NCBI RefSeq assembly: GCF_000341285.1
Contig: NW_005178445.1
Span: 98,789-162,788, forward strand
Direction: 5' to 3'
Origin: Galdieria sulphuraria
Lineage: Eukaryota > Rhodophyta > Bangiophyceae > Galdieriales > Galdieriaceae
Length of the DNA: 64,000 bases
The notes under the pieces were generated by a model, which was not told the origin of the DNA, did not search any database, and worked only from the letters and a program-made list of their open reading frames with translations. The translations under genes and the position numbers were made by a program. Numbering within the stretch: position 1 is the first letter of the stretch; the number at the start of each line of letters is the position of its first letter. Of this stretch, positions 21,859 to 52,900 are shown in pieces.

Positions 21859-24800
21859 ATGCCACCTCGAACCGAAAGGGCCGTCGAAGAAGAGAGTGTT
21901 GGCAAAGAGTACGACGTAGTATACGAGGTAATCATTCTTCTTTCAAGTGGACAAAAGCAGTTTTGTTAAACTCCACTAGGATGGTGAAATATTGCGGGAA
22001 CTGGATTTGTTCACACTGAGAGATACTAAAGGAAACTTGGTTCCGTTGGATTTATTGGACCAACCCCCTAAGAAAAGGCCAGCGCTTCAAGCAACGGGAT
22101 ATCTTTTACCTCCGGCTATCGAAAGTAAAGTTGCGAACGAAGGAACAACTTCCAACGGGGAAACTCCCCCTTTGAAGTTGCCGAAACTTCGTGTGAGACT
22201 GGCGAAAGTCACAGACTGGTGCGTCGAATATGGGGCTTATCCAGCACTGTGGATACAAACTACGGATAAATGGTATAGATTGCACAGGCCAGCTCCAGGC
22301 TACGAACCTTTTTTTGAACAGGCAGAACGTAAATTCTTGTATTGCTGTGCAGTTGTGGATATTATTGGAGCGTTCATTAGAGAAGGAAAACATGCTTCTG
22401 TTAAGAGAGTTGCCAAAGCTCTCCAAAGTAGAGAACTTTCTTTGGAATATCTATTGAATAACTCTGATTTGTTAAATTTTGTACGTGACCAACTCGAGTC
22501 TTTGGGAGATTCTTTGTTACTACAAACCGAGTTTGTGCAATACCTGAAAAATCCCATAGCTTTCTCGGAAAAGACAGAAAAGCCCAAAACTGTTGTTCAG
22601 TCGGAACAGAAGAGAAAAAGAGCTTCAGAGGAATCTCTCTCAAGTCATGTCGAGGAGTATTCTCCTTCACCACGTTTAACAAGAAGGAGGGAGAAGGAAC
22701 CTGAAGATGTTCACTTTGACGCTCATACTAGTACGTCTCATTCGAAAAAACAAATAATTCAAGACACAGATTCGGCTAATGGTTCGCACCCAAGTTGGCG
22801 AACGAGAAGAAAACGATCATTCATCAATACTGCGAAACAAGAGATTGATTCAGCTCCGTTACCCACAATAGAATTTGGCAAATATCCAAAACCAAGAAGA
22901 GGTCATCAAGTGAAGCTTTCTGATTGGAACGGAAAGGAATGTCTATCAGTTATACTGACTCTTGTAGAACTTCTTCATGTTCTGAGTGAAGATTCTTATT
23001 TCGATGAACTTTGTTTGAGTAGCAAGGTACCTAATTTGGTTTTGGATTGGAGAACTGTTGGAAGGGCAGTATTAGAACCTTGGAAGTACGATGTCTTTGG
23101 TGAACTAATTGCATGCTTAATACGGTTTCTCATGGCGGCATCAGGAATGGAAGCGAGAAGAGACTCGGTTGATTGGTTGACTTGGCAAGAGTTCATGCGT
23201 GATTATTTCTTGAAACGCCCTACAGGAAAAACGTTTCTAGAGAATGACGACGAGTTTACGTCAATTCTAGAAACTATGAGCAGAGTGGACTTTGTGGAGC
23301 TATCACAAGATACTCGCTTAGTTATAGTCGAACGTTTGGTGGACGCAGTTGTTGAGACGGAAGCCTTTCGAGACAAAATTAATGAGGCCACAGGTTATGA
23401 ACCAGAAACCAGTGGCAATGTTTTTTACGACAGTGACTATGAGTCTTTGGAAGATGATGAGTCTTCTTCTTCTAATGATGACACGTTCTTCTAGAGAACA
23501 AGAGAATGAAGTAAACCATGAAAATGGAAATATTCATGAGACCAATCAGAAGGCTCAAGAGTTAGCGAAAAAAGAGACAGTTTTAGAAAGAGTGGATTCC
23601 GTTCCTTTCCGAATTCGCGGGGTATGTGCTGGAAGAGATAGAGAAGGAGCTTTGTATTATATTTTGGGACGAGGTACCTCTTTAGCAATTTTTAGTTGTT
23701 TGGAACATCCTGTGGGTGGTGAAGAGTCTGAATGGTTTGTTGCTGAGACTAGAGATGAAATTATTGAGCTTTTAGAGAGTCTTGACAATAAGAGCGCTAT
23801 TGAGGAGAAACTTGTTGCCAATTTGCAAAACGTAGCATTGCGAGAATGGAAGCCAATGAGTGCCGAGAAGCAAATCAATGAAGGTTATGATTTTTCAGAT
23901 AGGGTATTTGGAAATTTGAATTCTGACAACTCGGAAGAAGAATATTTTTTACGTACGAATATAGAAGGACAATATCTCCCAAAGTCTCATCTTCTCATTC
24001 AGAAGGCTTTATTGTTCGCTGAACCGAAGTTGCCTTTTTGGTTGAGACAGAAGACCGAATATCTGGGCTTTCGTTCGAAAGAAGAAAGAGAATATTGGCT
24101 TCAAGATGTCGAAGAAGCCATCTCGGTTGAACAATTAAAGCAGTGCCTGATCGAGTTTTACGATATTATGTGCTATGACATGCTTGCCAGTCCTTCAGGA
24201 TCACAAGAGCTCTTGCATTTCTTTGGTATTCCTGTATCATGGTCAGAAGAACAAGCGAGACACGTCCGGCGGTCGACACAAGAAGCTAAGAATCCAACCC
24301 AATTATTCATTGCTATTCGCTCCTTTTTTTCGAATATTTTGATTCCTCTTTGCCGAGAATGTAAGGCGCAAGAAATTTCTCAGAGTCATTATTCGAAACT
24401 AAGAAAGGATCTATTACTTCCCAAAAGAAATGAAGGATATCATGGCGAAATTGATCTAGTAGAATTCGTAGCTTTCAATAGAGGTGATCCTCTTATATAC
24501 TGTCGGACAGGTCATCTTTCTCATTACTATGAGAAACTTTTGCCATTTTCCGAACTTCATATCGAAGATATTGCACCTCTCAAATCCGTACAGAGAGGTA
24601 TAGTTGAGCATATTGGTTTTTACAGAGGACCTTCCTTCTGCATTCAAGTAGTTCGACTTTTATTGATGGAAGACGCTGAGAGTGAAGAGTCATTTTTTAG
24701 GCTCGACTGTTTTTGTCGAGCAGATGCATTTCTTCCCGACTATTTGATGAAAGAAAGGATCTATTTGAAGTCCTTGGAAAGGGGTTGGTCAGAAGGAGAT

Positions 24801-26318
24801 GAATTTGAAAGCTTCTTTATTAAGGATGGTCTGTTGATTCCACGTCGTGGAGTTATCATTAAAAGCTTAGTTATCGCTCCGAATGGTTATCCAGGAAGTG
24901 AGATCATGAGAAAGAGTGATTTAGCTATTCCAACGAATCAAATATCAAACGGCATGACCTTTTTACCGCAGGATAGTTCATTTATGGAACAAGAGTCACC
25001 AATGCAACTGGATACAGTCTTGGAAGGATCACCTAAAGGTCATGAACCAATGACTGTGGACGAAAGAGAAGATCAATCTTTAGAAGAATTGATTGTGAAT
25101 AACAGTGAGAAGAAGGATGCAGGAGGAGAAGAGAATCTTTCAGAAGTTTCATTTGAAGAAGAAGAAGATAGAATTCAAAAGTTGTGGAATGCATTGGTTG
25201 GGATTGAAGAATCAGGACAAGATGACTCAAACAACGCTGGCTGGATAGAATACATGACTGTGTCTGAGGATCGTCTTGATCTTGCAGTTGATACCAATCC
25301 GGAGTCTTTTGCGTTCATCGATGATTTTTATGATCCCTACGATCAAGCATATGACTTTAGCCAGTTTCAAGCAGGAGTTGAGACACGTGCGAGGAGTCTG
25401 AGAAGTCATTCTGCATTGGAAGAGGAAGATGGTCGAGGTGAAGGTGTTGGCTCACTTCGAAAGAGAGCAGGAGAGTGGGATCCTTGGGAGAGCATTGAGG
25501 TGACTTGGATTCAACCTATTGATGCAAGTATGGAATCATTTCGATTTCTCAGTCCGTGGGAACTTTATCCTTTGAGTCAACAAGGAATGAGTTTTATTTA
25601 CCATCCACTTATATGTAGGCCACATTTGAAGGAAACCAGTAACTCAGGAATGCGCATTTCGGGTCTTGGTCGTAATAATATGAGAGGAGAACCTTTTTCA
25701 GCCCGCAAATCTGCATTTCGTATGGAAGGTTCGAGGTCTCATGATCGACGCAATACGAATTATAATGTCGTAAAGAGGAAGAGAATCGATTTGTCATCAG
25801 CATATTGTCTTGCATGTGAGCTACCTATGGAAGATGCAAGTAATCCTTTGATTGCTTGTGATGGCCCTTGTCAGAAAACTTTTCATTATGAGTGTGCTCC
25901 CGGAGACGAAAGTGAACGTCCACCAATAGAGTCTATTGAACTTTATGCTTCTGATGAAAGACCTCTTTGGCAATGCCACAACTGCACTAGTGGTGAGCAT
26001 ATTTGTTTCTCATGTGGAAGACCAGGACATATTGCTGATGTCAATGATCCTCTAAGAAAGTGCAGCTTAGGAAGTTGTGGACGTTTCTATCACAACTCTT
26101 GCGCTCAACAAGAACCATTGGCCAGACTTGCATCGGATGGAAATTGGTTTCGTTGCCCACAACATTACTGTGTTGTTTGTGAAGAATCGGGTGATTCCCG
26201 TCCAATGATCAAGTGTATCTATTGCCCAAGAGCTTGGCATGTGCAATGTGCACATGGAGAAGGTTTAGATATGATAACAATGAAGTTTGCAAGATGTCCT
26301 GCCCATAAAAGGCGTTGA
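21859..26318 (+). CDS. RFD/DDT/PHD chromatin protein (1,451 aa)
   Basis: Three exons are proposed: 21859-21927, 21980-23442 and 23495-26318. The first intron (52 nt, GTAATC...ACTAG) is clear. The second (23443-23494, 52 nt, GTCTTT donor) is needed to change frame and is weaker. Residues about 89-152 resemble the replication-foci (RFTS) domain of DNMT1-type proteins ([22 protein letters not shown]). A DDT-like helix set follows near residues 340-375. A long acidic region ends in zinc fingers from about residue 1280: [10 protein letters not shown]...[36 protein letters not shown] and [16 protein letters not shown], i.e. tandem PHD fingers of the NSD/EDM2 kind that read histone tails. There is no methyltransferase domain. 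It is likely a nuclear chromatin reader or remodeller accessory protein. Confidence 0.75.
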
Positions 26319-29939: not shown

Positions 29940-31772
29940 TCATGAGACTAACAGGCTTGATTTTTCGGTATCCACTGTATCAAAGTTGCTGATCGTTATT
30001 TCACTAAAACTCTTATCCTGTTGTACTTGAATACGGTCAATACTCTTCAGAACAAGCAACTCATAAAAATATTGTGCAGCTTGTCTTCTTCGAGAAGAAA
30101 TGCTATTGGAAGAGCTTACTTGGTGTAAAAACTCTGAAAAGGTTATCTTAGGTTGTGTAATGTTTTCTTCTGAAGATGTACCGTATTGACGAATCATATG
30201 CAGTGTTTGAATGGTTCTTGAACTTATGCTCAGTTGAGTTTGTGTCAAAGTATTCTGCTTTTTCAAATGGTATTCCTTATCTTCTTCATTATATGGTTTC
30301 GGCATATTGGATGTATTCAACGGAATTTCCGATAGACAGGAAGCATTCATTCCAGCTGACATTAGTATACTTTCATTTGTAGCTGGGAGCTGAAATGAAT
30401 CTTGTTCAAACGGTATTTGTTCTCCCCAATCGTTGTCTTGCACTGAAAAAGTTACAGAATCACGTCCGGGTGAGAATAATGGACTAGCATGGAAGGCAGC
30501 ATTGTCCGCATGTCGTAGTTGAGGAAGGCTGAGATTTCCTTGAGAGTAATATGATATCATAGGTTCGATAGTTGTGGTGTAGATTGGAGGAATGCAAGGA
30601 AGCTTGAAGCTTGGTTCAAGTATCATATGTAACCACGTCTCTGCATTTTCTTCTGGAACTCGAGATATGTGAGATTGAGGTCGGTAAACTAAGTCCTTGG
30701 TATCCGAAAGATGTCTCTTCAGTGTTTTTGCACTTATTTCAGAGTTTCTATCGATGGCAAAAATACAAGTATTGGAATCAGTTTTTCTCTTTTTGGCATT
30801 ATTTTGTTCTTGTTGGTTGATTTCCAATGGAAGAGGCGACTCTTGGAGCAATATAGAGTCTCCTCTTCCTGTTGTATTATCCAGGGGAAATGAAGTTTCA
30901 TGTCTTTGTTCGAAGTTTGGAGATGTTTCGAAAACAGAGTCCGCATCCATTTCCATAGAAAAATTCCAATCGGAATTATCTTGTTCTTTTCTGTTTCCTT
31001 GTACTCCAGAAAGTCTCTCTAATGAAATTCGACCAGAAAGACTTCCTCGACTTTCTCGACGAAGTACTTCAGGGGATTGCAAAGAAGCACGCGCCGAAAG
31101 AGGTGTTAAATTCATATTGACAGTCTCTCTATGCAGCATCTCATGATCATCCCAATGTTCCAAGGCTGCGTCTGGCATCTGATAGATAAAATCCATGTCA
31201 ACCGGAGGAAGAGTAATGTCTTCAGGTCGCGCACGAAATCGAGAAAGCGACTGAGCTGTTTCATTCCAACGAAACTCAGAAGATGACAAGGTACAAGCCA
31301 TGTCAGTGTCCATGTCCAATAGCATGTCAATATCTAGAATGCTTGAAGTTTCTGAAAACCTATCCAACTCATAGCGAGACCTTTTCGAAGATTTCTTGGA
31401 GCTTTCTTCCCGTTTTAGTTGGGACGTATCGTCAACGCCTTCCATAGTAATAGCGGAATACGGTGCAACAGTTGTTCCAGGGGCTAGATCGACAGTGTTT
31501 CCTTGAAAGACAAGCTGCAACTTATTCAAAGCTTCTCGGCTATCGATAAACAAATAATGAGCTTTCCTGGAGTAAATTCGTACTATTCCTAGAAGCAGGT
31601 TGGATGAAAGTCTCAACGCAAAAGATAACTCTGGGGACTGTAGCTGTTCACATGCAGCAACAACATCTGTGCTAAATACCTGAGTTTTGCTAAGCTTATG
31701 TTGGAGATGAGCTGCAAGCCATATCTTTCCCAAAGGTCCCTTTTTGGTTAAAATGATTGGCGAGTAAAACAT
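29940..31772 (-). CDS. RAD21: Rad21/Rec8-type cohesin kleisin
   Basis: The kleisin bridges the SMC1/SMC3 heads and closes the cohesin ring that holds sister chromatids together. The single-exon 610-aa product begins with the family hallmark MFYSPIILTKKGPLGKIWLAAHL-type N-terminal domain (kept here as FYSPIILTKKGPLGKIW) and HKLSKTQV. A long acidic, serine-rich linker holds candidate separase/phosphorylation regions. The C-terminal winged helix contains SRRRQAAQYFYELLVLKS. It could be the mitotic Rad21/Scc1 or the meiotic Rec8, and the sequence alone does not decide. The gene is convergent with PrmA (116 bp gap) and divergent from the FNR-J gene. Confidence 0.9.
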   Translation of the reverse strand: MFYSPIILTKKGPLGKIWLAAHLQHKLSKTQVFSTDVVAACEQLQSPELSFALRLSSNLLLGIVRIYSRKAHYLFIDSREALNKLQLVFQGNTVDLAPGTTVAPYSAITMEGVDDTSQLKREESSKKSSKRSRYELDRFSETSSILDIDMLLDMDTDMACTLSSSEFRWNETAQSLSRFRARPEDITLPPVDMDFIYQMPDAALEHWDDHEMLHRETVNMNLTPLSARASLQSPEVLRRESRGSLSGRISLERLSGVQGNRKEQDNSDWNFSMEMDADSVFETSPNFEQRHETSFPLDNTTGRGDSILLQESPLPLEINQQEQNNAKKRKTDSNTCIFAIDRNSEISAKTLKRHLSDTKDLVYRPQSHISRVPEENAETWLHMILEPSFKLPCIPPIYTTTIEPMISYYSQGNLSLPQLRHADNAAFHASPLFSPGRDSVTFSVQDNDWGEQIPFEQDSFQLPATNESILMSAGMNASCLSEIPLNTSNMPKPYNEEDKEYHLKKQNTLTQTQLSISSRTIQTLHMIRQYGTSSEENITQPKITFSEFLHQVSSSNSISSRRRQAAQYFYELLVLKSIDRIQVQQDKSFSEITISNFDTVDTEKSSLLVS

Positions 31773-32154
31773 GGTCTTTCACAGGATTTGTTACCAACGA
31801 GTTGAACAAACTATCAAATTCGCTTCTGAATGCCTATCATGTCCCACTTAGAAGGCGGGCTCTTGCATTTGATTGGTTTGAAGAAACCCGCTCTGAATGG
31901 ACAAACCAAGAAGAAGGGCTGGTCTTTTTTGCAAGAGGGTGCGGTTTTTCTTTGAGAAGAAAAAAACTTGTAGCCAACAACTAAATTAGATAGAACGTTT
32001 CGTTTGGTTTCTACCTGGTTGCTTATAGTGTTACTATATTCATATAGCGATAGAGATAATAGACTTTAGAAAATTCTTCATCTAAACACGTTCCTATAGA
32101 AAGAAACGTTGCAAATCCCAATTTTGTTAACTGATTCACTTTGAACACGTTCAA

Positions 32155-34002
32155 ATGCGAAGTTTTCTGGACTCCACCAGTTTTTTAGGACAAGAAAGTC
32201 CTATTCAGTCATCTTATAGTTTCTTTAGTTGCAGCAGTAGTCATTCTGCGTATTTTTGCAGAGAAAGTAAGAGGAGTCTTTTATTTTCAAGCAAGAAAAG
32301 TTGGGGAGTTGCTAGAGTTTCAAGGTTTTCTCGCGCAACTCCCTTCGCTTCTACAGCTCCAGATCAGGATGCAGCAAGTTTTCGGGAGAAAGAGCCTACT
32401 GGAACCAAGTGGAAGTTGCACTTGCCGTTGAAGTTTCTCTCTTTTCTTTTTGGTAGAGGTAACAGAATGAAGGACTTTGAAACGTGGAATTTGGAAGAAA
32501 GTGACGCGGATTTCCAAAAAGTTTTTATGAATTCGTTTTCGAGACCTGGTTTTATGAGGCCAGTCACAGAGGATGTTTCGAAAAGAATTATGCTTAGAAA
32601 TGTGGGACGAATTCGTTCCATTCGTCCTTGTAGCATTTCAGAAGATATTTTGCTCGTTACTGTTGAGAGAGAAACAGTTAATGCTAGTCAGAATTGGATG
32701 CACGAGCGACCTGGTCAGTTTGTCCAAATTAGCGGCAAGCCCTCTCATGCGAGCTGTTCATCCATGGCAGTTATTGCTTCTGCACCATTTTTTGTGGATA
32801 ATTCGAATGTAATTGAACTTGTTATCAGTAAGCAAAGTGACCCTTGCAAGCTTTCAAAGAAAATTGGAGAACAAGTTTTTCTAAGTCCCATTATGGGTCA
32901 TGGACTGGATTATGTATATCCTAGCAAGTCAGAGAGACTTTATGTTTTCGTAGATTGTCCACAAGGTATGGCAGCTGTTAGGTCTTTTTTGAAGTGGCAT
33001 CTTTTTCGAGCAATGTCCGGCACGGGAACTTATCGAACCACCCAAGTGACTGTATTTTACGAGGCTCCAAACAGTACTTTTATGGCTTTTTTGTCCGACT
33101 TTCGTGATTGGAATGTTTTTGGTGTTGAAGTAGTACCAGTTTTGGATTGCAGTTTGAAAGATTTTGTGCCCAGTTACTTGAATTCGAAGTCTTTTCATTC
33201 ATTAACAGTTTCTTCTATTTTTGCTGTTGCAAGTGATAGAACTGCAAATTTTCTACAGAGTTTACTGCTTTGTCATGGTGTAAAGTTGTCATTTATGCAG
33301 TCACTTACCCAGGAAAGGCTGGAAAGAGAGTTTACGGAATTCAAGAAGCTTGACCACTTTCAAGAGGCTGAGGATAGTTATTTGGAAATGGAAAGAGAAA
33401 TGTTTGAGGAGAAAATGTGGAATACTTGGAAGCAGCAACGGGAAGGGATGTGGTCTGAATTTGTAGAAAGGCGTCATATGAGAGAGACAAGCAGACCGTC
33501 AGCAAGCGATGAAAAAGAGTTATGGGACGATTGGTTCTCTCGAAACAGTGAAAGTTGGAAAGACAGCATTTGGGACGAACATATGTGGCAACAGTATTGG
33601 AGTACTTGGAAGGACGAACGTGAGTCATGGTTTCATTCAGGTTCGTTCAACACGAGAGACTTTGGAGGTCCTGGCAGCTACAGCAAGACAGGTTATGGAT
33701 ATCACGATCCATCTTATGCATCGGGCTGGGATACTGAGAGTTTCTCAGCCAATTCTAGTTATTCTGATGATTCTAGTTCCATTGGAAGTTTCTCATCAGA
33801 TAGTTATTTTGACCCTTATGCAATACTCGAAATTAGCAATGGTGCTTCTATAAGTGAAGTGAAGCGGGCTTATCGACAACAGGCACTTCGATGGCATCCT
33901 GACTTGAATAAGGATAATTTGGAGCTTTCAAAGAGGAGAATGCAACAAGTTATTTTGGCTTATCAAATCGTAAAGGAAGAATATAGGCATCGTTGTAGAT
34001 AG
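32155..34002 (+). CDS. Plastid FNR-like (pKIWI502-type) protein fused to a J domain
   Basis: A single exon encodes 615 aa. The first ~80 residues are Ser/Phe/Arg-rich, like a plastid transit peptide. Residues about 150-350 look like the ferredoxin-reductase fold of the plant protein pKIWI502: a FAD-binding barrel (HERPGQFVQISG, then SPIMGHGLDYV) and an NAD-type lobe (TQVTVFYEAPN, DWNVFGVEVVPVLD). Classic NADP-binding residues are poorly conserved, so reductase activity is uncertain. Residues about 400-500 are rich in Trp, Glu and Arg (MWNTWKQQREGMW, WDDWF, WQQYWSTWKDERESW). The C-terminus is a J domain (DPYAILEIS, RAYRQQALRWHPDLNK) with the HPD tripeptide that activates Hsp70. The fusion suggests a plastid co-chaperone acting with a flavoprotein-like module. 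It is a single open frame, so the fusion is not a splicing guess. Confidence 0.85.
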   Translation: MRSFLDSTSFLGQESPIQSSYSFFSCSSSHSAYFCRESKRSLLFSSKKSWGVARVSRFSRATPFASTAPDQDAASFREKEPTGTKWKLHLPLKFLSFLFGRGNRMKDFETWNLEESDADFQKVFMNSFSRPGFMRPVTEDVSKRIMLRNVGRIRSIRPCSISEDILLVTVERETVNASQNWMHERPGQFVQISGKPSHASCSSMAVIASAPFFVDNSNVIELVISKQSDPCKLSKKIGEQVFLSPIMGHGLDYVYPSKSERLYVFVDCPQGMAAVRSFLKWHLFRAMSGTGTYRTTQVTVFYEAPNSTFMAFLSDFRDWNVFGVEVVPVLDCSLKDFVPSYLNSKSFHSLTVSSIFAVASDRTANFLQSLLLCHGVKLSFMQSLTQERLEREFTEFKKLDHFQEAEDSYLEMEREMFEEKMWNTWKQQREGMWSEFVERRHMRETSRPSASDEKELWDDWFSRNSESWKDSIWDEHMWQQYWSTWKDERESWFHSGSFNTRDFGGPGSYSKTGYGYHDPSYASGWDTESFSANSSYSDDSSSIGSFSSDSYFDPYAILEISNGASISEVKRAYRQQALRWHPDLNKDNLELSKRRMQQVILAYQIVKEEYRHRCR

Positions 34003-34208
34003 TGTCGTTTGACAATGAAGAATGATCATGTGTATGTAGTCGTTATACATACATACTTATCATGATAGGGAAACGTTTATATTTGTTCAAAGACATTGGG
34101 ATGGGAAGTTTTACGGGATATATAATTGTTTGATGTGAAAATTGGGTTTCCGGTAAATAATAAATTTTTCTCGTAAGTCAAAAAGTAATCCATTCGTTCA
34201 TTGATATC

Positions 34209-37200
34209 TTATAATATACCATTGGTGTAAAATTGATATCGATCATATTGTCTTGTTCTCCAGTTATCCACACTTTCGTCAATCAAAGATAACATATGAT
34301 GAATGCATTCATTTTCCAACAAACCCAAACAAAACCTTTGTCGAAAGGATTCCAACACACTATGGCCACCATGCATACAAGGAATCTTTGTTCCTTCGAT
34401 CATGATTTCAACCAAAGTTGTTAACTTTTCGTGATGCTTTCTAGCTGCTAAGAAACCTTGCACCATCAGTTCTCGAAAATACTGAAATGCTTCACTATGA
34501 GTACCTCCCATCACATCAACAAACTCCGCAGTTAGCTTGAATGGAGCAGACTCAAAACGAATGGAACCAGGAGAGTTGCCCAACATGAAACCAAAGTCGA
34601 TATGGATGACTCGTCCTTGTGAATCCAACATAATATTTCCATTATGTCGATCTTTGATTTGAAGAAGATAGCAAACCAATGAATAACCAGCCATACTTTC
34701 TACAAAGTTTCTTTGAGCTCTTCTGAATCTTTTGCTGTCCTTTCCCCCGTAAACTCTTTCAAAATAGTCCAAAAGAGTGACAAAGTTGGGAGTTCTTTTC
34801 TTTAGGGCATGCAAGGACACAGCATCAGGCAATGTTTCAACCAAACCCGAATCAGCACTTAAACAAACCACAGTGAAAGGTCGAACCCACAATTCCAAAT
34901 CCTCTTCAACAAAGATATTCCGAAATTGTGCAATGAGCTGAACTGCTAGTTGTTCTTGACGAAGATCATCACCAGCTTTTACTATGAAGGATGCCAACTT
35001 CCAACCAGAAAAGTGACCAAAAGGAGAAGCCTAAATCGTACTATCATTTGCTTTTACAATAAAATGCTGTCGTCCACTTACTTTGCGGATTCTTTCGGCT
35101 TTCCAGTGCCAAATTTCACCATAAACAGCTAACAATGCGGCATCACGAGAAATAATAGAATCTGGATCTTCCAAATCTTCCTTTCCACTTTCTACATACT
35201 CTTCCATGTTGACTGCGGTAACAGAATTCCCATAAACTGCGTTTCGTACATGTTCCTTTTGTTTACTGCTCGGTGTCGTTGAAGATTCCACACTTCCACT
35301 TCTTGTTTCCTTTGATGAAGGAGGCGTTTCTTCACTTGACAAAGTTCTTTTCCTTGCAATATGACTTGCAATATGTGGACTTTCCATTACAGCTACAATA
35401 TCTTTGTCATCATTCTCTTCATAGTCGTCCACAAGCATATGTTCAAAAAATACATATTGACTACAACATAACATATTGGTCTCCACCACTTCAACGAATA
35501 CCAGGAAAGGAACTCTAGTTCGAGTGGGAAAAACGATAGTCTCTTCAGGAACAAAACGAAGTATACGTAGCACTCTTGAAACAGCTCTTGCAATAGGAAG
35601 ATGTAAACTGCGTAATGCTACTGCTCTTCCTTGTTGTGCAAGCCATTCCAAGGAAGGAAGCTGAGGTGGCGGCTTTAAGGGTGATGGATGTGATTCCAAA
35701 CCAGACATGCCTATGAAACAAATCATAAAAAAATCTCGATAAATGAAAATACTCACGTCTTAAGAACAGTTCATTGATACGGTCCAATCCACGCTGAATG
35801 AAACTATATCTTTTGTCCGAAGGGGCATCTCTTGCTGCTGAAGAGAGACGGACCAACTGTTTTACAAAAACAAGACCATCATTGAAATAGTCGAATCTTT
35901 CCTGTTTCGAAGCCAACATAGCTTTGAGCTCAGGAGACAGTTGATTGGTTGATTCACTTCTCGTATCAAGCACCTTATTGGGCTTCACACAAGAATCATC
36001 CACTTTTTCCATTCCAAAAGAGTTCGACACTTTTAGCTCTTCCATCCCTATCTTTTGATACTCAATAATATTGCTAACCTCCTCATCATGCGAGGTTTCA
36101 CCGATATCGATGATACCCGATGCTTTTCTACAAAGAGAAAGGGCGTCATTCATACTCAGAGCTGCTTCAAAATATTCTTCCGACAAAATGAAACCCGTCT
36201 CAAGCCAATCTTGCTTCAACAGTAAATTTCTTTCCACTCTATACAACAAGTCCTCAACAAGTTCACGCATTTGTTGTGATATTAATTCATCCAACTGTAT
36301 GTCATCCTTAACGATTGAGCTGCTTTCTTCCTCCTTCCTATCTTGAGCTCTGTTGAGGTGATTAGCCGAGCTTGGCATCTTCGGGGGCTTCGTTCGATTC
36401 CCAAAGTGGTTCATAACAGACAAATGACTCGATTTCTTTTCAGGAGTGGAACTTGATGAGGCTCCCGAAATATTCTCTTGCCGTAAATACAACTCTTCGT
36501 GTTTCTTTTCCTTGAAACGAGGAGAACTATTCAGTGAGCGACTGGCTTCAGAATGGAAAGAACCAAGACTGGATATATCACTGACTCTACTTCTGTGAAA
36601 GGGTTCCGGTTCCGAGTTTGAACGTGAACGTGTTGTGCCCTTTAGGATATCGTTTGCAGACAACGAGGGATGCAAATCCTTTGTAAGTAGTGACTCCTCG
36701 TTGTAAGGCGCTGGGAGAGACGTAGACTGGTAGTAACCGTTTACAGCAGCAGTTTCACAAAGTGTGCGCAACTGTTGAACCCTTGGAAGCCTTTCTCTAT
36801 GACAGTCTTCGCAAGCAGCTTGCAAAAACCAGTATACCTTGAAATAACTTGAGTTTGGAACTCAACAACTTCCTTGAAACTAACCTGAAGTGCAAAGTGC
36901 ATAGATTGTGCGCACTTATCCATAACAAACTTCTCAAGTGCTACAGAATCTTGAGCATGATGAACCAACAAGTTGCTAGAGATGGAGAAAGGTAAAAGAA
37001 GCTTCTTTGGTGAACTTTGGATTCAAAGCTTACCATAGCTGCGGAAGATATAATTCTAAGTCTTCGTCTGATAGTTTGTACAATTCATTACACAAATAGT
37101 CATGAACTCCTCTAGAGCTCCTATAGCGATATAAATAGGTCACCGCCATCCAGGCATCGAAAAAATCTGAGCGGAATAAACGTAATAACCAACCCATCGA

Positions 37201-47827: not shown

Positions 47828-49960
47828 CTAAATATTTTTGGAAAGAGATAAAACTATTTCTTGTAGGGTTGAAATGCCAATATTTCTCGAATGTGGATTA
47901 TCCACAGACTTGAAAGCGTTCCTTAAATTTGATAAAATGTCTTTGCCAATAAAGTTTTCTACATCAGCTTCAGAAAGAATAACCAATTCACAGTTGTGAG
48001 GAATCAAGAATTCTCCAACACTATCGCCAAATGAATAACAACGACTAGAATGATTCAAGTCCTCAGATACAATTGTAGCCAACTTGGTACTCATAATAAT
48101 CAACATACAATGCCATGTAGGATGACTAGTCAATACTTGATCATGAACTGGTTTTAAAAACTTGTGAGCTTCTTCCAAAATTTCATTCCATCGAATACCA
48201 CTACGACTCCATCGGCCTTTACAAGCAATACCCACCATCATCAAGTTCTTCTCATTCGTTCTTCCATGCAACTTGAATAATATATCTGGACTATGAAAAG
48301 TTGAATGAAATGGAATATATATCTTTTCAAATTCTAAAATTTCTTCCACTATCCTTTCCCATTCATCATTGCTTCCAAATGTCATTCTCTCTGTTCCTAA
48401 TACAGCTCTGGTACAATGTATAGATTTCATATAATAAGCAGCAGATTCGGAAGAAAATTGTAAATTCATTTCATTCCAAACACGAGACAATTGACCAAGA
48501 GTAGAAAACATTGAGCTGTTTGTAGGACGCCGAGAAAAATGTAAATAAAACAGTGTAGCAATAAGACCTTCCAAAATTCGACATTTCGACTCATAAAAGA
48601 ATTCAACAGATTGAGACTTGAGAGTTTGTAAAAGTAACCATTCTAAACGATCATCCTTTAAGCCTTGGTCAATATATTCAATCAGTAACTTGGGAATCAA
48701 CACTTCATAGCGTTCGTTGCGGTCTGGTTCTATAACCAATCGACGATAGAGACACATATCTGTAACTAGATCAAACAAAAACACATCAGAATTTGAGCTC
48801 ATTTGCACAGTTTCATCAAAATCAAATCGAATACGATACAAAGATAATAACCAAAGCATTCTTAACAAGCGCTTACGCTGCTCACTGAGACTTATCAGAC
48901 GAGGTAAGAATGGCGCAACACAATAATTTGTTACTAGAAAGCTATTCATTATGATCAAGAAGGTTTCCTTAGATAATAAGAAATTGTTGTTGGATGATTT
49001 ATACAGCAAAAGGTAACTGATTGCTCGAACAAGTAAACCAGGAACACCACCAGTCAATTCCAACAACAATTCTGCAAGTTCACTAGTTGAGAAGTCTTCG
49101 TGACAAAGAATTTCTGAAACCTTTGGGCTCCCAGGGAATAAAAAGGAAGAACTTTTCTCCAAATGTTCCACGATACTATGGTTCTCAAGCGGCGAAAGAG
49201 GAATAAACACTAACTGAACCCTTGAGACTGAAGCTACGTAATTATATATATTTAAGCCTTCACTTTTCCCAACAACAATAAAAAACAAGTCGGGTTCTTC
49301 ACACAACTCACGAATAATACCGAAAAAGTCGTTGTAAGGTCGAACTCTACCGCCGTGGGTTCTCTTGAAATGAAATTCGTCGAGACTTTCGTCTAGGACA
49401 CCAACTTCATCAAATGCTATAAGAAGATATTGATCCGAAGGAATGTTTAAGATTGAACGGAATTTCTGAACCACAGCATCAGTCCTAAGTTTCAGTTCCT
49501 TGAAACATTCGTCCGGGTCTGGTTGCGGAAGACCTGACTGCAAACAAGCAACCTTTATTAACAAATAGTAGACTGCCCACTCAAGGTTGCGTTTTTCTTC
49601 GGTGGGGAGAGTGGGCTTTAGCAGCCTTAGGTCGATGTAAAGCAACGAAGCCCTTTTCAGCTTCTCCAGAAAGGTTCTCCTCAAAGGGTTCCAAGCAAAA
49701 GTCGACAGGGAAGTTTCACTAAACCATCGCACCAACTCCAAATAGGTTACATAAAACGTGGTCTTGCCAGAACCGAACATGTGCGGAGCGAATGGTATGG
49801 TCAAGCGATAGTTGTTACTACTTGTTACAACCCTGAGTTGTTCTCTGTTGCTATGAAGATCATACAGTTCTTTTGTCACTCGAACAACATCTCTTTCACG
49901 ATCTACCACAACAGACTTAAAGTTGTCCACAGCTTTCCACTTTTCATCCAAGCTCGCCAT
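47828..49960 (-). CDS. Large P-loop NTPase with possible nuclease-like tail (Crinkler/RHS-like or expanded ATPase family)
   Basis: The single exon gives 710 aa from the ATG at 49960, and the frame also extends to an ATG at 50038. The P-loop is MFGSGKTTF, about 60 residues after the start. Walker B is YLLIAFDEVGVLDE and a sensor-like FIVVGKSEGLN follows. The order is NTPase, helical and winged-helix-like middle (ELTGGVPGLLVRAISYLL), then a C-terminal part with SPDILFKL and VGIACKGRWSRSG, which fits the D...xxK pattern of restriction-endonuclease folds. That architecture matches Crinkler/RHS-type proteins (NTPase plus nuclease) in many protists. An alternative is one of the large ATPase families of archaeal-like type reported as expanded in Galdieria. 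I find no transposase or terminal repeat around it. Confidence 0.6.
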   Translation of the reverse strand: MASLDEKWKAVDNFKSVVVDRERDVVRVTKELYDLHSNREQLRVVTSSNNYRLTIPFAPHMFGSGKTTFYVTYLELVRWFSETSLSTFAWNPLRRTFLEKLKRASLLYIDLRLLKPTLPTEEKRNLEWAVYYLLIKVACLQSGLPQPDPDECFKELKLRTDAVVQKFRSILNIPSDQYLLIAFDEVGVLDESLDEFHFKRTHGGRVRPYNDFFGIIRELCEEPDLFFIVVGKSEGLNIYNYVASVSRVQLVFIPLSPLENHSIVEHLEKSSSFLFPGSPKVSEILCHEDFSTSELAELLLELTGGVPGLLVRAISYLLLYKSSNNNFLLSKETFLIIMNSFLVTNYCVAPFLPRLISLSEQRKRLLRMLWLLSLYRIRFDFDETVQMSSNSDVFLFDLVTDMCLYRRLVIEPDRNERYEVLIPKLLIEYIDQGLKDDRLEWLLLQTLKSQSVEFFYESKCRILEGLIATLFYLHFSRRPTNSSMFSTLGQLSRVWNEMNLQFSSESAAYYMKSIHCTRAVLGTERMTFGSNDEWERIVEEILEFEKIYIPFHSTFHSPDILFKLHGRTNEKNLMMVGIACKGRWSRSGIRWNEILEEAHKFLKPVHDQVLTSHPTWHCMLIIMSTKLATIVSEDLNHSSRCYSFGDSVGEFLIPHNCELVILSEADVENFIGKDILSNLRNAFKSVDNPHSRNIGISTLQEIVLSLSKNI

Positions 49961-52900
49961 CGCCAAAATAAAATTGAATAACCTGTGGTTTATTTTTGAG
50001 TATAAATATAAATAAATAAACAATTGACTGTTTGCCATTCACAACAACAACAACGAAAACAGTAAAGGATACCAACCCAACTTCTTCTCTGTATCAACTG
50101 ATGACTATGGCATACCCTTTAGGGCTTGGACTGAGATGACTTGAACTATAGAAGAACGATCAATATGGCTTTTTCAACTATCAATATTCTTATTCTCGTA
50201 TGCTAATATAATGGTAACTCTCATAGGGTACAAGAAGGATTGGAAGGAAGCCAATGTTTATTTCACAAGTTTTTTATGCTCTTTGAGAGTATAAAGCTAT
50301 TAAACATGGCCCATTCTCAAATAGATAAGAAAGTTTCTTTCAGAATTTTCGAGAGTAGTCATGAGAGTTCCGAGAAATATAGATTGTTCATGAAGAATTT
50401 GTTCCATAGACGTCTCTCTCTAGATTTTCTGTATTTTATGGAACAGTTTTTACGTCACTTTTGCTTCATTTCGAAACACGGAACTAGAGTATGAACCAAG
50501 TCATTCTCTTTTGTAATCTACCCAAAAGCTCCAGTTGAAATATATTATTTAGTAGAAATGCAGAAACCCGCAAGCACAACACTCCTTTATTCTCAGCAAT
50601 CATCAAATTCCTTTCTTACGATATCATGACAACTAGCAGCTTATCACTAAAGCTACAAAAATTGATGATAGCAAAAGACAAACCAAAACAAACGTGCAAA
50701 GAAGGATCCAAAATATCTCGTGGTTTTATCAAATCTCAGAAACAACATTGACTCACACAAGTGTATCATCAATACTCAATTTCTGTAAGAGTCAATAACT
50801 CCTGTCTCTTTCTCCTCTGAAAATAGTGGCATTTGATACTGTGGATTCTGTTAAGAGGAGAAAAGATATTTTCAAGAAAAATTCAATTCAGTCGAATTGA
50901 GTCTATTCTATCTATTCTCTTCTCGTATATTGTCATTGCATAACATTTGAATCATAGTTGAATTCCCTCTCCCCAATAGCCCACTATATAGTTGAGGTGT
51001 TTTTGAAGGTAAACATGACTGTTTAGGTTTGAAGGTTTTCACTGCCTCCTCTTGAACTTTGTAGAAACCACAAATTGTGAACATAGATAAGAAAGCAAAC
51101 TATATAAAACACAAAGCTGCCTTAGGGCATGGATAACTCCAAGAGAACTCTTATTTCTTCCAATACGAAGAAAACAAAACTTTTAAAAGCTCTGCAAATT
51201 CAAGGAAAGATTTGTTCCGCTGCAGTTGTCTCCTACTCTTTTCCCACTCTCTCATCCATCAGCTCGTTGAATGAGTCATAATACAAAAGTTATTCGTGTT
51301 AGACACTAGGCAGAAGACTCTCGCGAAATATAACCTGACGGGTACGTTGGTGGAGGCTTCTCCTTAGATATTTGTAACAAGAATCAAAGACAACTCAAAG
51401 TTTTGTATAAACAAACTGTCTACATGTACAAGAAACGTTCATTTCCATTAGGGACAAGTCAAACATAAAGAAGAAAAGATAAAGTTTTATCCAAATTGCT
51501 CTAAAAAGAAGGAAAATGTCTCTTTCAACTTTGTATTATTCAGCAGAATAAAATTGTGCAGAGTCAAATTGATATTGTGATTATCCAAACTGGTAAAGGT
51601 CTTATTCTCTTAAATATACTAGATAAATTTCGTCTACTAGTGAAAAGAAAAGAATATAAACGTAGAAATAATGGAAAAATAAGAATCTTTCATCTCCTCT
51701 TGGCAAAGTAACAAAGAAGGTGAATCTTGAAATATATGTGCAAGGAGAAGCGAAAGCATCACCACTTTTACCGTTGTTATACTAGTCAAAAAGTCTCAAA
51801 AAGTTCTTTAGGTGGAGAACGAACCAATAGCCTTGAATCGTTTGAGGTTCGATCCTCCTTGACGTAAGTAGTTTATGTACGAATTTGTGTATAGACAAAA
51901 GTATTCCCAACCTTTGGTCAGTTTTTTATTATCGTCCTGTTCTCTGTATACTTTCCAATTCTAGAGTTGAATATACGATTTATTCTTCTTTATAACTCGT
52001 AATCGAACAAAGATTGCTCCTAGAGCGTAATTTGCATAGAAGGAAAGGTTCTAGTTCTCACAATGCAAGCCAAACAGAGTTAACGTCATTGAAATTAGAA
52101 AATGACAATTTTACACCTTTAAGCAGTTTTCCTAAATTTTGAGTGACCAACAAAGAAAGGTTCTCAGAACGAAAACGAGTCAAAAACTGGTTGTAGCAAA
52201 ACCGTTCTTGATTTGTTATCAAAATAGGGTCACAAGAAGTTTAAAATTTACCTTGCAGAGACAAGATTGATCAAACTCAACTCTGTTAAAAGGCTACAGT
52301 GTCGCTAGGGAGTTGAGAGGACCTTTGATACGACACTGTTCTTCTCGTTTCACAACAATACTGAGAAGTGAGATTGAATGTATCTAGCACACTTATTGTT
52401 CCAGAAACTTTTTACATATCTCCAAGTGGAATATTTTCTTTCATAAAACTCACTAGTCACTCAAAATAATATATCTCCAGTGAAAGGAGACAATACAAAG
52501 CAATCCTTCTCATAACAATCCAATTAGAAATGAACACAATGGTTTGATTGTTGGATAAAAAGGAAGGCTCAGTGAGTATTGTCAACGCTGTGGACCTGAT
52601 TCAAGTTTGCTAGTGAAACTTTTCAGACTTTAATTTCTAAAACGAATTCGTCGTTTGATTTAGTTGGACAAGTGAATTTCTATTATCTACGTTTCTTTTT
52701 TAAGCCCTTCAAATGTTTCTTTTAGAACAATCCATCGAGTCCTGAGCTCTGAGTTCCAAGTAGACTGTAGTTTCTTTTTAGTATTTACAACTTTTATTAT
52801 CTCTTTGGAATTTATATACTTTATGCAACACTTGTTTTTATTTCACTTCTGGTCTTGTATGGAAATTTGAGATTAGCGTTGTCGAGAAGAGAGCAAAGAC

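Follow-up and report, generated by a model that had tools for sequence, protein, structure and literature searches.

A locus in the 64,000-nucleotide stretch of Galdieria sulphuraria DNA analyzed here (the window) raises the question of whether one gene joins a relative of the plastid protein FNRL/pKIWI502 to a J domain and, if so, what such a protein might do. From its N to its C terminus, the predicted protein has a Ser-rich N-terminal region, an FNR-like region, a Trp-rich linker, a Ser/Gly/Tyr-rich segment, and a J domain (Table 1).

Table 1 Features of the fusion gene, in window positions
Feature	Residues	Positions	Strand	Remark
Whole gene		32155..34002	+	One frame without interruption in the genome; 615 codons and a stop codon
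Likely plastid transit peptide	~1-70	32155..32364	+	Suggested by composition
FNRL/pKIWI502-like region	141-392	32575..33330	+	Profile matches locally at 154-331; by alignment, part of the FAD half is retained and the NAD(P)H motifs are missing
Trp/charged linker	393-495	33331..33639	+	Predicted helices
Ser/Gly/Tyr-rich segment	496-552	33640..33810	+	Low confidence, probably disordered
J domain	553-609	33811..33981	+	PF00226
AATAAA, possible polyadenylation signal		34159..34164	+	

An in-frame TAA at 32128 lies upstream of the ATG, and none of the 8 codons between the two is a start codon. The gene has a neighbor on each side that delimits it, a Rad21/Rec8-like frame upstream (29940-31772) and a PI3/PI4-kinase domain downstream (34209-34997), both on the minus strand. 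Elsewhere in the window, overlapping plus-strand frames at 21992-26318 carry a DNMT1 replication-foci domain and NSD-type PHD fingers and are possibly one intron-split chromatin gene, and a 736-amino-acid frame on the minus strand (47828-50038) had no Pfam match at E ≤ 0.001.

The initial annotation described the fusion as one uninterrupted frame, and this was upheld: all 615 codons are open, and 0 of 20,000 base shuffles of the 160-codon inter-domain stretch were stop-free in that frame. When the measure was trained on six other ORFs of the window, synonymous codon usage supported coding in the N-terminal part (z 3.0), the FNR-like part (z 5.9), and the J domain (z 3.5); the two linkers gave no informative signal (Trp-rich, z 0.4; Ser-rich, z 1.7). 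The silence of this signal in the linker is what one might expect if two adjoining genes, one for a degenerate FNRL and the other for a J protein, were being read together, or if the gene model or assembly were at fault. However, the inter-domain codons are open, no stop ends the FNR-like part, and the linker is predicted to be helical, all of which make such a reading very improbable. The fusion of an FNRL-like part with a J domain is real at the level of the sequence.

The kinship of the FNR-like part was examined in several ways. First, hhalign of a profile of two FNRLs (A1) against the window protein gave a probability of 97.9% and an E value of 4.7e-13 over 159 columns, spanning residues 154-331. 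In scripted control runs, whose settings differed slightly from those of the main run, the real segment scored 79.1, compared to at most 23.1 for 60 shuffles and at most 22.1 for 15 segments of other window ORFs. Second, BLASTP to pKIWI502 gave 28% over 155 columns, with an E value of 1e-13 for that single comparison. When the genome was searched in six frames with this pKIWI502 sequence, the window gene ranked best (1.2e-9), followed by a match on contig C20 (2.7e-5), which we take from its look to be an ordinary FNR, and then by three pieces on contig C46 (3.7e-5 to 4.7e-4). Third, BLASTP between the window protein and the organism's own FNRL, encoded on C46, gave a weak alignment, with 34.3 bits and 18% identity, that lay in part over the N-termini, and the script score of the FNR-like segment against this FNRL was 33.5, compared to at most 24.6 for 200 shuffles. 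The hhalign match, together with its shuffle and unrelated-segment controls, bears out the pKIWI502-like relationship first proposed for this protein; by these comparisons the relationship is real but remote.

The distance is apparent from the family searches. The FNR-like part alone had no Pfam match at E ≤ 10, and its single NCBIfam match, to ATP synthase gamma (E 0.13), was at chance level. No related sequence was found for it among 177,635 PDB sequences, where the three matches up to E 10 were all to phosphotransferase enzyme I (best E 1.2). A three-member profile consisting of the two FNRLs and the window protein (A2) reached FNR-family structures, with 51 sequences at E ≤ 0.001. This signal may be carried mostly by the two FNRLs rather than by the window protein; at E ≤ 1, Pfam detected NAD_binding_1 in two of the three members, FAD_binding_6 in one of the three, and no family in the window protein. 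A single-sequence AlphaFold model of the FNR-like part had a mean pLDDT of 37.5, too low to use. Of the ferredoxin-reductase fold that the initial annotation assigned, therefore, the sequence relationship stood and the model did not confirm the fold itself. Two contig scans for cyanobacterial FNRL homologues gave 24 and 22 pattern matches, none of which was confirmed.

A conventional FNRL lies at C46:94067-95233 (L020 1568-2734), where six inferred exons with GT-AG borders encode a protein of 306 residues that, over 234 columns, is 41% identical to kiwi pKIWI502. This protein keeps GSGISP and CGVKGM, ends in ILTNF followed by a stop, and is without a J domain. The organism therefore has another FNRL besides the window gene, which is a divergent relative. 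Homologues lacking the J domain, which had been named in advance as speaking against a fusion, are represented only by this paralogue. About 0.9 kb from it is C46:96133-96270 (L020 3634-3771), the one place in the genome that Fer4_13 matched at E ≤ 1; the frame there (L020 3607-4410) continues by eye into a metallo-beta-lactamase-like stretch (HVPGHTRGS, TGDH).

What does the FNR-like part retain of the enzyme? In the FNR family, the GSGISP and CGxKxM motifs bind NAD(P)H. The two FNRLs are identical at 92 columns, which we split at the MGKG motif. Up to this motif, in the FAD half, 14 of 32 such residues are retained by the window protein, with 1 gap, and the PGQFVQI, IAS, and MGHG stretches are kept; the STA found ahead of the conserved Cys in both FNRLs is missing, leaving a three-residue gap. 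In the NAD(P)H half, after the motif, 10 of 60 are kept with 5 gaps, or 5 of 28 by hand count when only the locally supported part, to residue 331, is considered. GSGISP aligns to PQGMAA, none of the fixed C, G, K, and M of the CGxKxM stretch is kept, and WTGxxG falls in an alignment gap. Placement past residue 331 rests on the global alignment and is uncertain, and because the local alignment gives no homology support there, CGxKxM may be absent through replacement of the sequence instead of mutation. In sum, the window protein shares with FNRL/pKIWI502 an FNR-like sequence, alignable by profile, and a probable plastid location, but it lacks GSGISP, CGxKxM, and the C-terminal ILxNF end and carries a linker and a J domain. 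The alignment shows no retained NAD(P)H motif, whereas the FNRL-like FAD half could still bind flavin.

These residues bear on three alternative readings. The protein might still work as an NADPH oxidoreductase of the FNRL type, to which a J domain has been added, as its sequence kinship would suggest, since Arabidopsis FNRL (At1g15140) is described as a plastid NADPH-dependent oxidoreductase in an excerpt of PMC11500984; but with the NAD(P)H motifs gone and an intact FNRL already in the genome, this reading is scarcely credible. The FNR-like part might instead be a flavin-dependent redox switch, binding FAD and being reduced by a donor other than NAD(P)H, with the state of the flavin controlling exposure of the J domain. 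The retained stretches and the 14 FNRL-identical residues of the FAD half are in keeping with such a switch, as is the precedent of the J-ferredoxin proteins CDJ3-5, which pair a redox module with a J domain in the plastid (PMC9407819, in excerpt), but the missing STA stretch and the lost NAD(P)H motifs make it an unlikely, if not negligible, alternative. Finally, the gene could be species-limited or decaying. Decay under weak constraint would account for the low identity and lost motifs of the FNR-like part, but it is improbable for a gene with 615 fully open codons, an intact HPD, and codon bias in the FNR-like part itself. The suggestion of a "flavin-binding or redox-sensing" module is thereby weakened on the NAD(P)H side, where the motifs are replaced; on the FAD side, flavin may or may not be bound. 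Given the loss of the NAD(P)H motifs, the module would more likely be a reductase-derived docking element (a pseudo-reductase) than an NADPH-driven redox sensor.

The J-domain family PF00226 matched residues 553-609 with 47 bits against a cut-off of 27.8 (E 2.9e-12), and the HPD tripeptide, already claimed to be intact, was read at residues 581-583 (33895-33903, plus strand). No other Pfam family, Fer4 included, was detected in the 615-residue protein at E ≤ 10, and the DnaJ zinc-finger and C-terminal domains are absent; 13 NCBIfam matches, each under its cut-off, covered the J part only. Since no further Pfam family is present, the protein is classed as a class C (type III) J-domain protein, a class whose members, like this one, share only the J domain with DnaJ. 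Counted exon by exon, PF00226 had 35 matches at E ≤ 0.001 from 36 candidates across the genome; J proteins are therefore common, and this gene is one of many. A J protein on contig C29 (L007) was set aside, as its match was weak (29% over residues 410-611) and it is a different protein with, by eye, its own N-terminus. A scan of viral contigs gave three pattern matches, two of which were confirmed, both for the J domain only.

Between the two domains, the Trp/charged linker was found as described in the initial annotation, and the genome held no second copy of it at E ≤ 1. A single-sequence AlphaFold model of residues 393-615 (mean pLDDT 52.8) predicted helices at 394-443, 450-472, and 475-494, with pLDDT values of 47-73 by ten-residue block, mostly 60-73. 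Residues 496-562 were under 50, with no long helices up to 553, and the J-domain helices reached only about 42-60.

The closest precedents are the DnaJ-Fer proteins (CDJ3, CDJ4, CDJ5/DJC76, DJC77, DJC82), plastid proteins in which a J domain is likewise combined with an electron-transfer module of the ferredoxin/FNR side. In the green lineage, such J-ferredoxin proteins act with plastid HSP70B, according to excerpts of PMC9407819 and PMC3564930. In them, the J domain is followed by a ferredoxin-type Fe-S domain (PMC3564930, in excerpt), whereas in the window protein it is preceded by an FNR-like module and Fer4 is absent. The survey excerpted from PMC3564930 did not detect CDJ3-5 in Rhodophyta, noting scarce data. 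A J-plus-ferredoxin gene was sought in the present genome and rejected: the Fer4_13 match on C46 had no J match there, and Fer4_15 gave none, both counts being lower bounds as exons were read singly. On these grounds, the window gene would belong to this general kind of fusion but be distinct from those proteins. Among the open-license matches listed (title and start of abstract), we found no described class C member with an FNRL-like module, and no description of this fusion.

The setting is consistent with a plastid role. The first 70 residues contain 23 Ser/Thr, 9 basic, and 4 acidic residues, a composition that makes plastid targeting plausible, as had been claimed. The genome (12.0 Mb, 102 contigs) has PBS_linker_poly in 5 places, 4 of them on contig C36. 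This contig has 158,315 bases, a GC content of 28% in the 9 kb measured, and apcE-like, phycobiliprotein, chlB-like, and DnaK genes (L056, L057), and the 18 kb that was read showed no tRNA. By its gene content C36 looks like the plastid genome, and the phycobilisome genes and this plastid-like contig agree with the red algal plastid setting assumed at the outset. The DnaK on C36 exceeds the cut-offs of two NCBIfam equivalogs and is the likely partner of the window J protein.

Taken as a whole, the evidence probably describes a class C J co-chaperone of the plastid. The nuclear gene would encode a protein imported into the plastid, whose N-terminal module derives from the FNRL family, has lost NAD(P)H binding, and would serve as a pseudo-reductase for docking or client recognition. 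By way of the Trp-rich helices and flexible tether, the C-terminal J domain would reach the plastid-encoded DnaK and so stimulate it. As a first guess, the client may be the intact FNRL or FNR, or a complex on the ferredoxin side. A more speculative version, which we consider unlikely but not negligible, is that this is the red algae's own electron-transfer-linked J protein, convergent with green J-ferredoxin, in which the pseudo-FNRL senses flavin or binds FNRL/ferredoxin partners and thereby directs plastid DnaK.

J proteins determine the targets of Hsp70, and little on those of red algal plastids was found in the open-license literature searched. If the co-chaperone reading is true, the fusion would represent a second route from parts of photosynthetic electron transfer to chaperone adaptors and would provide a concrete protein for tests with the plastid-encoded DnaK.
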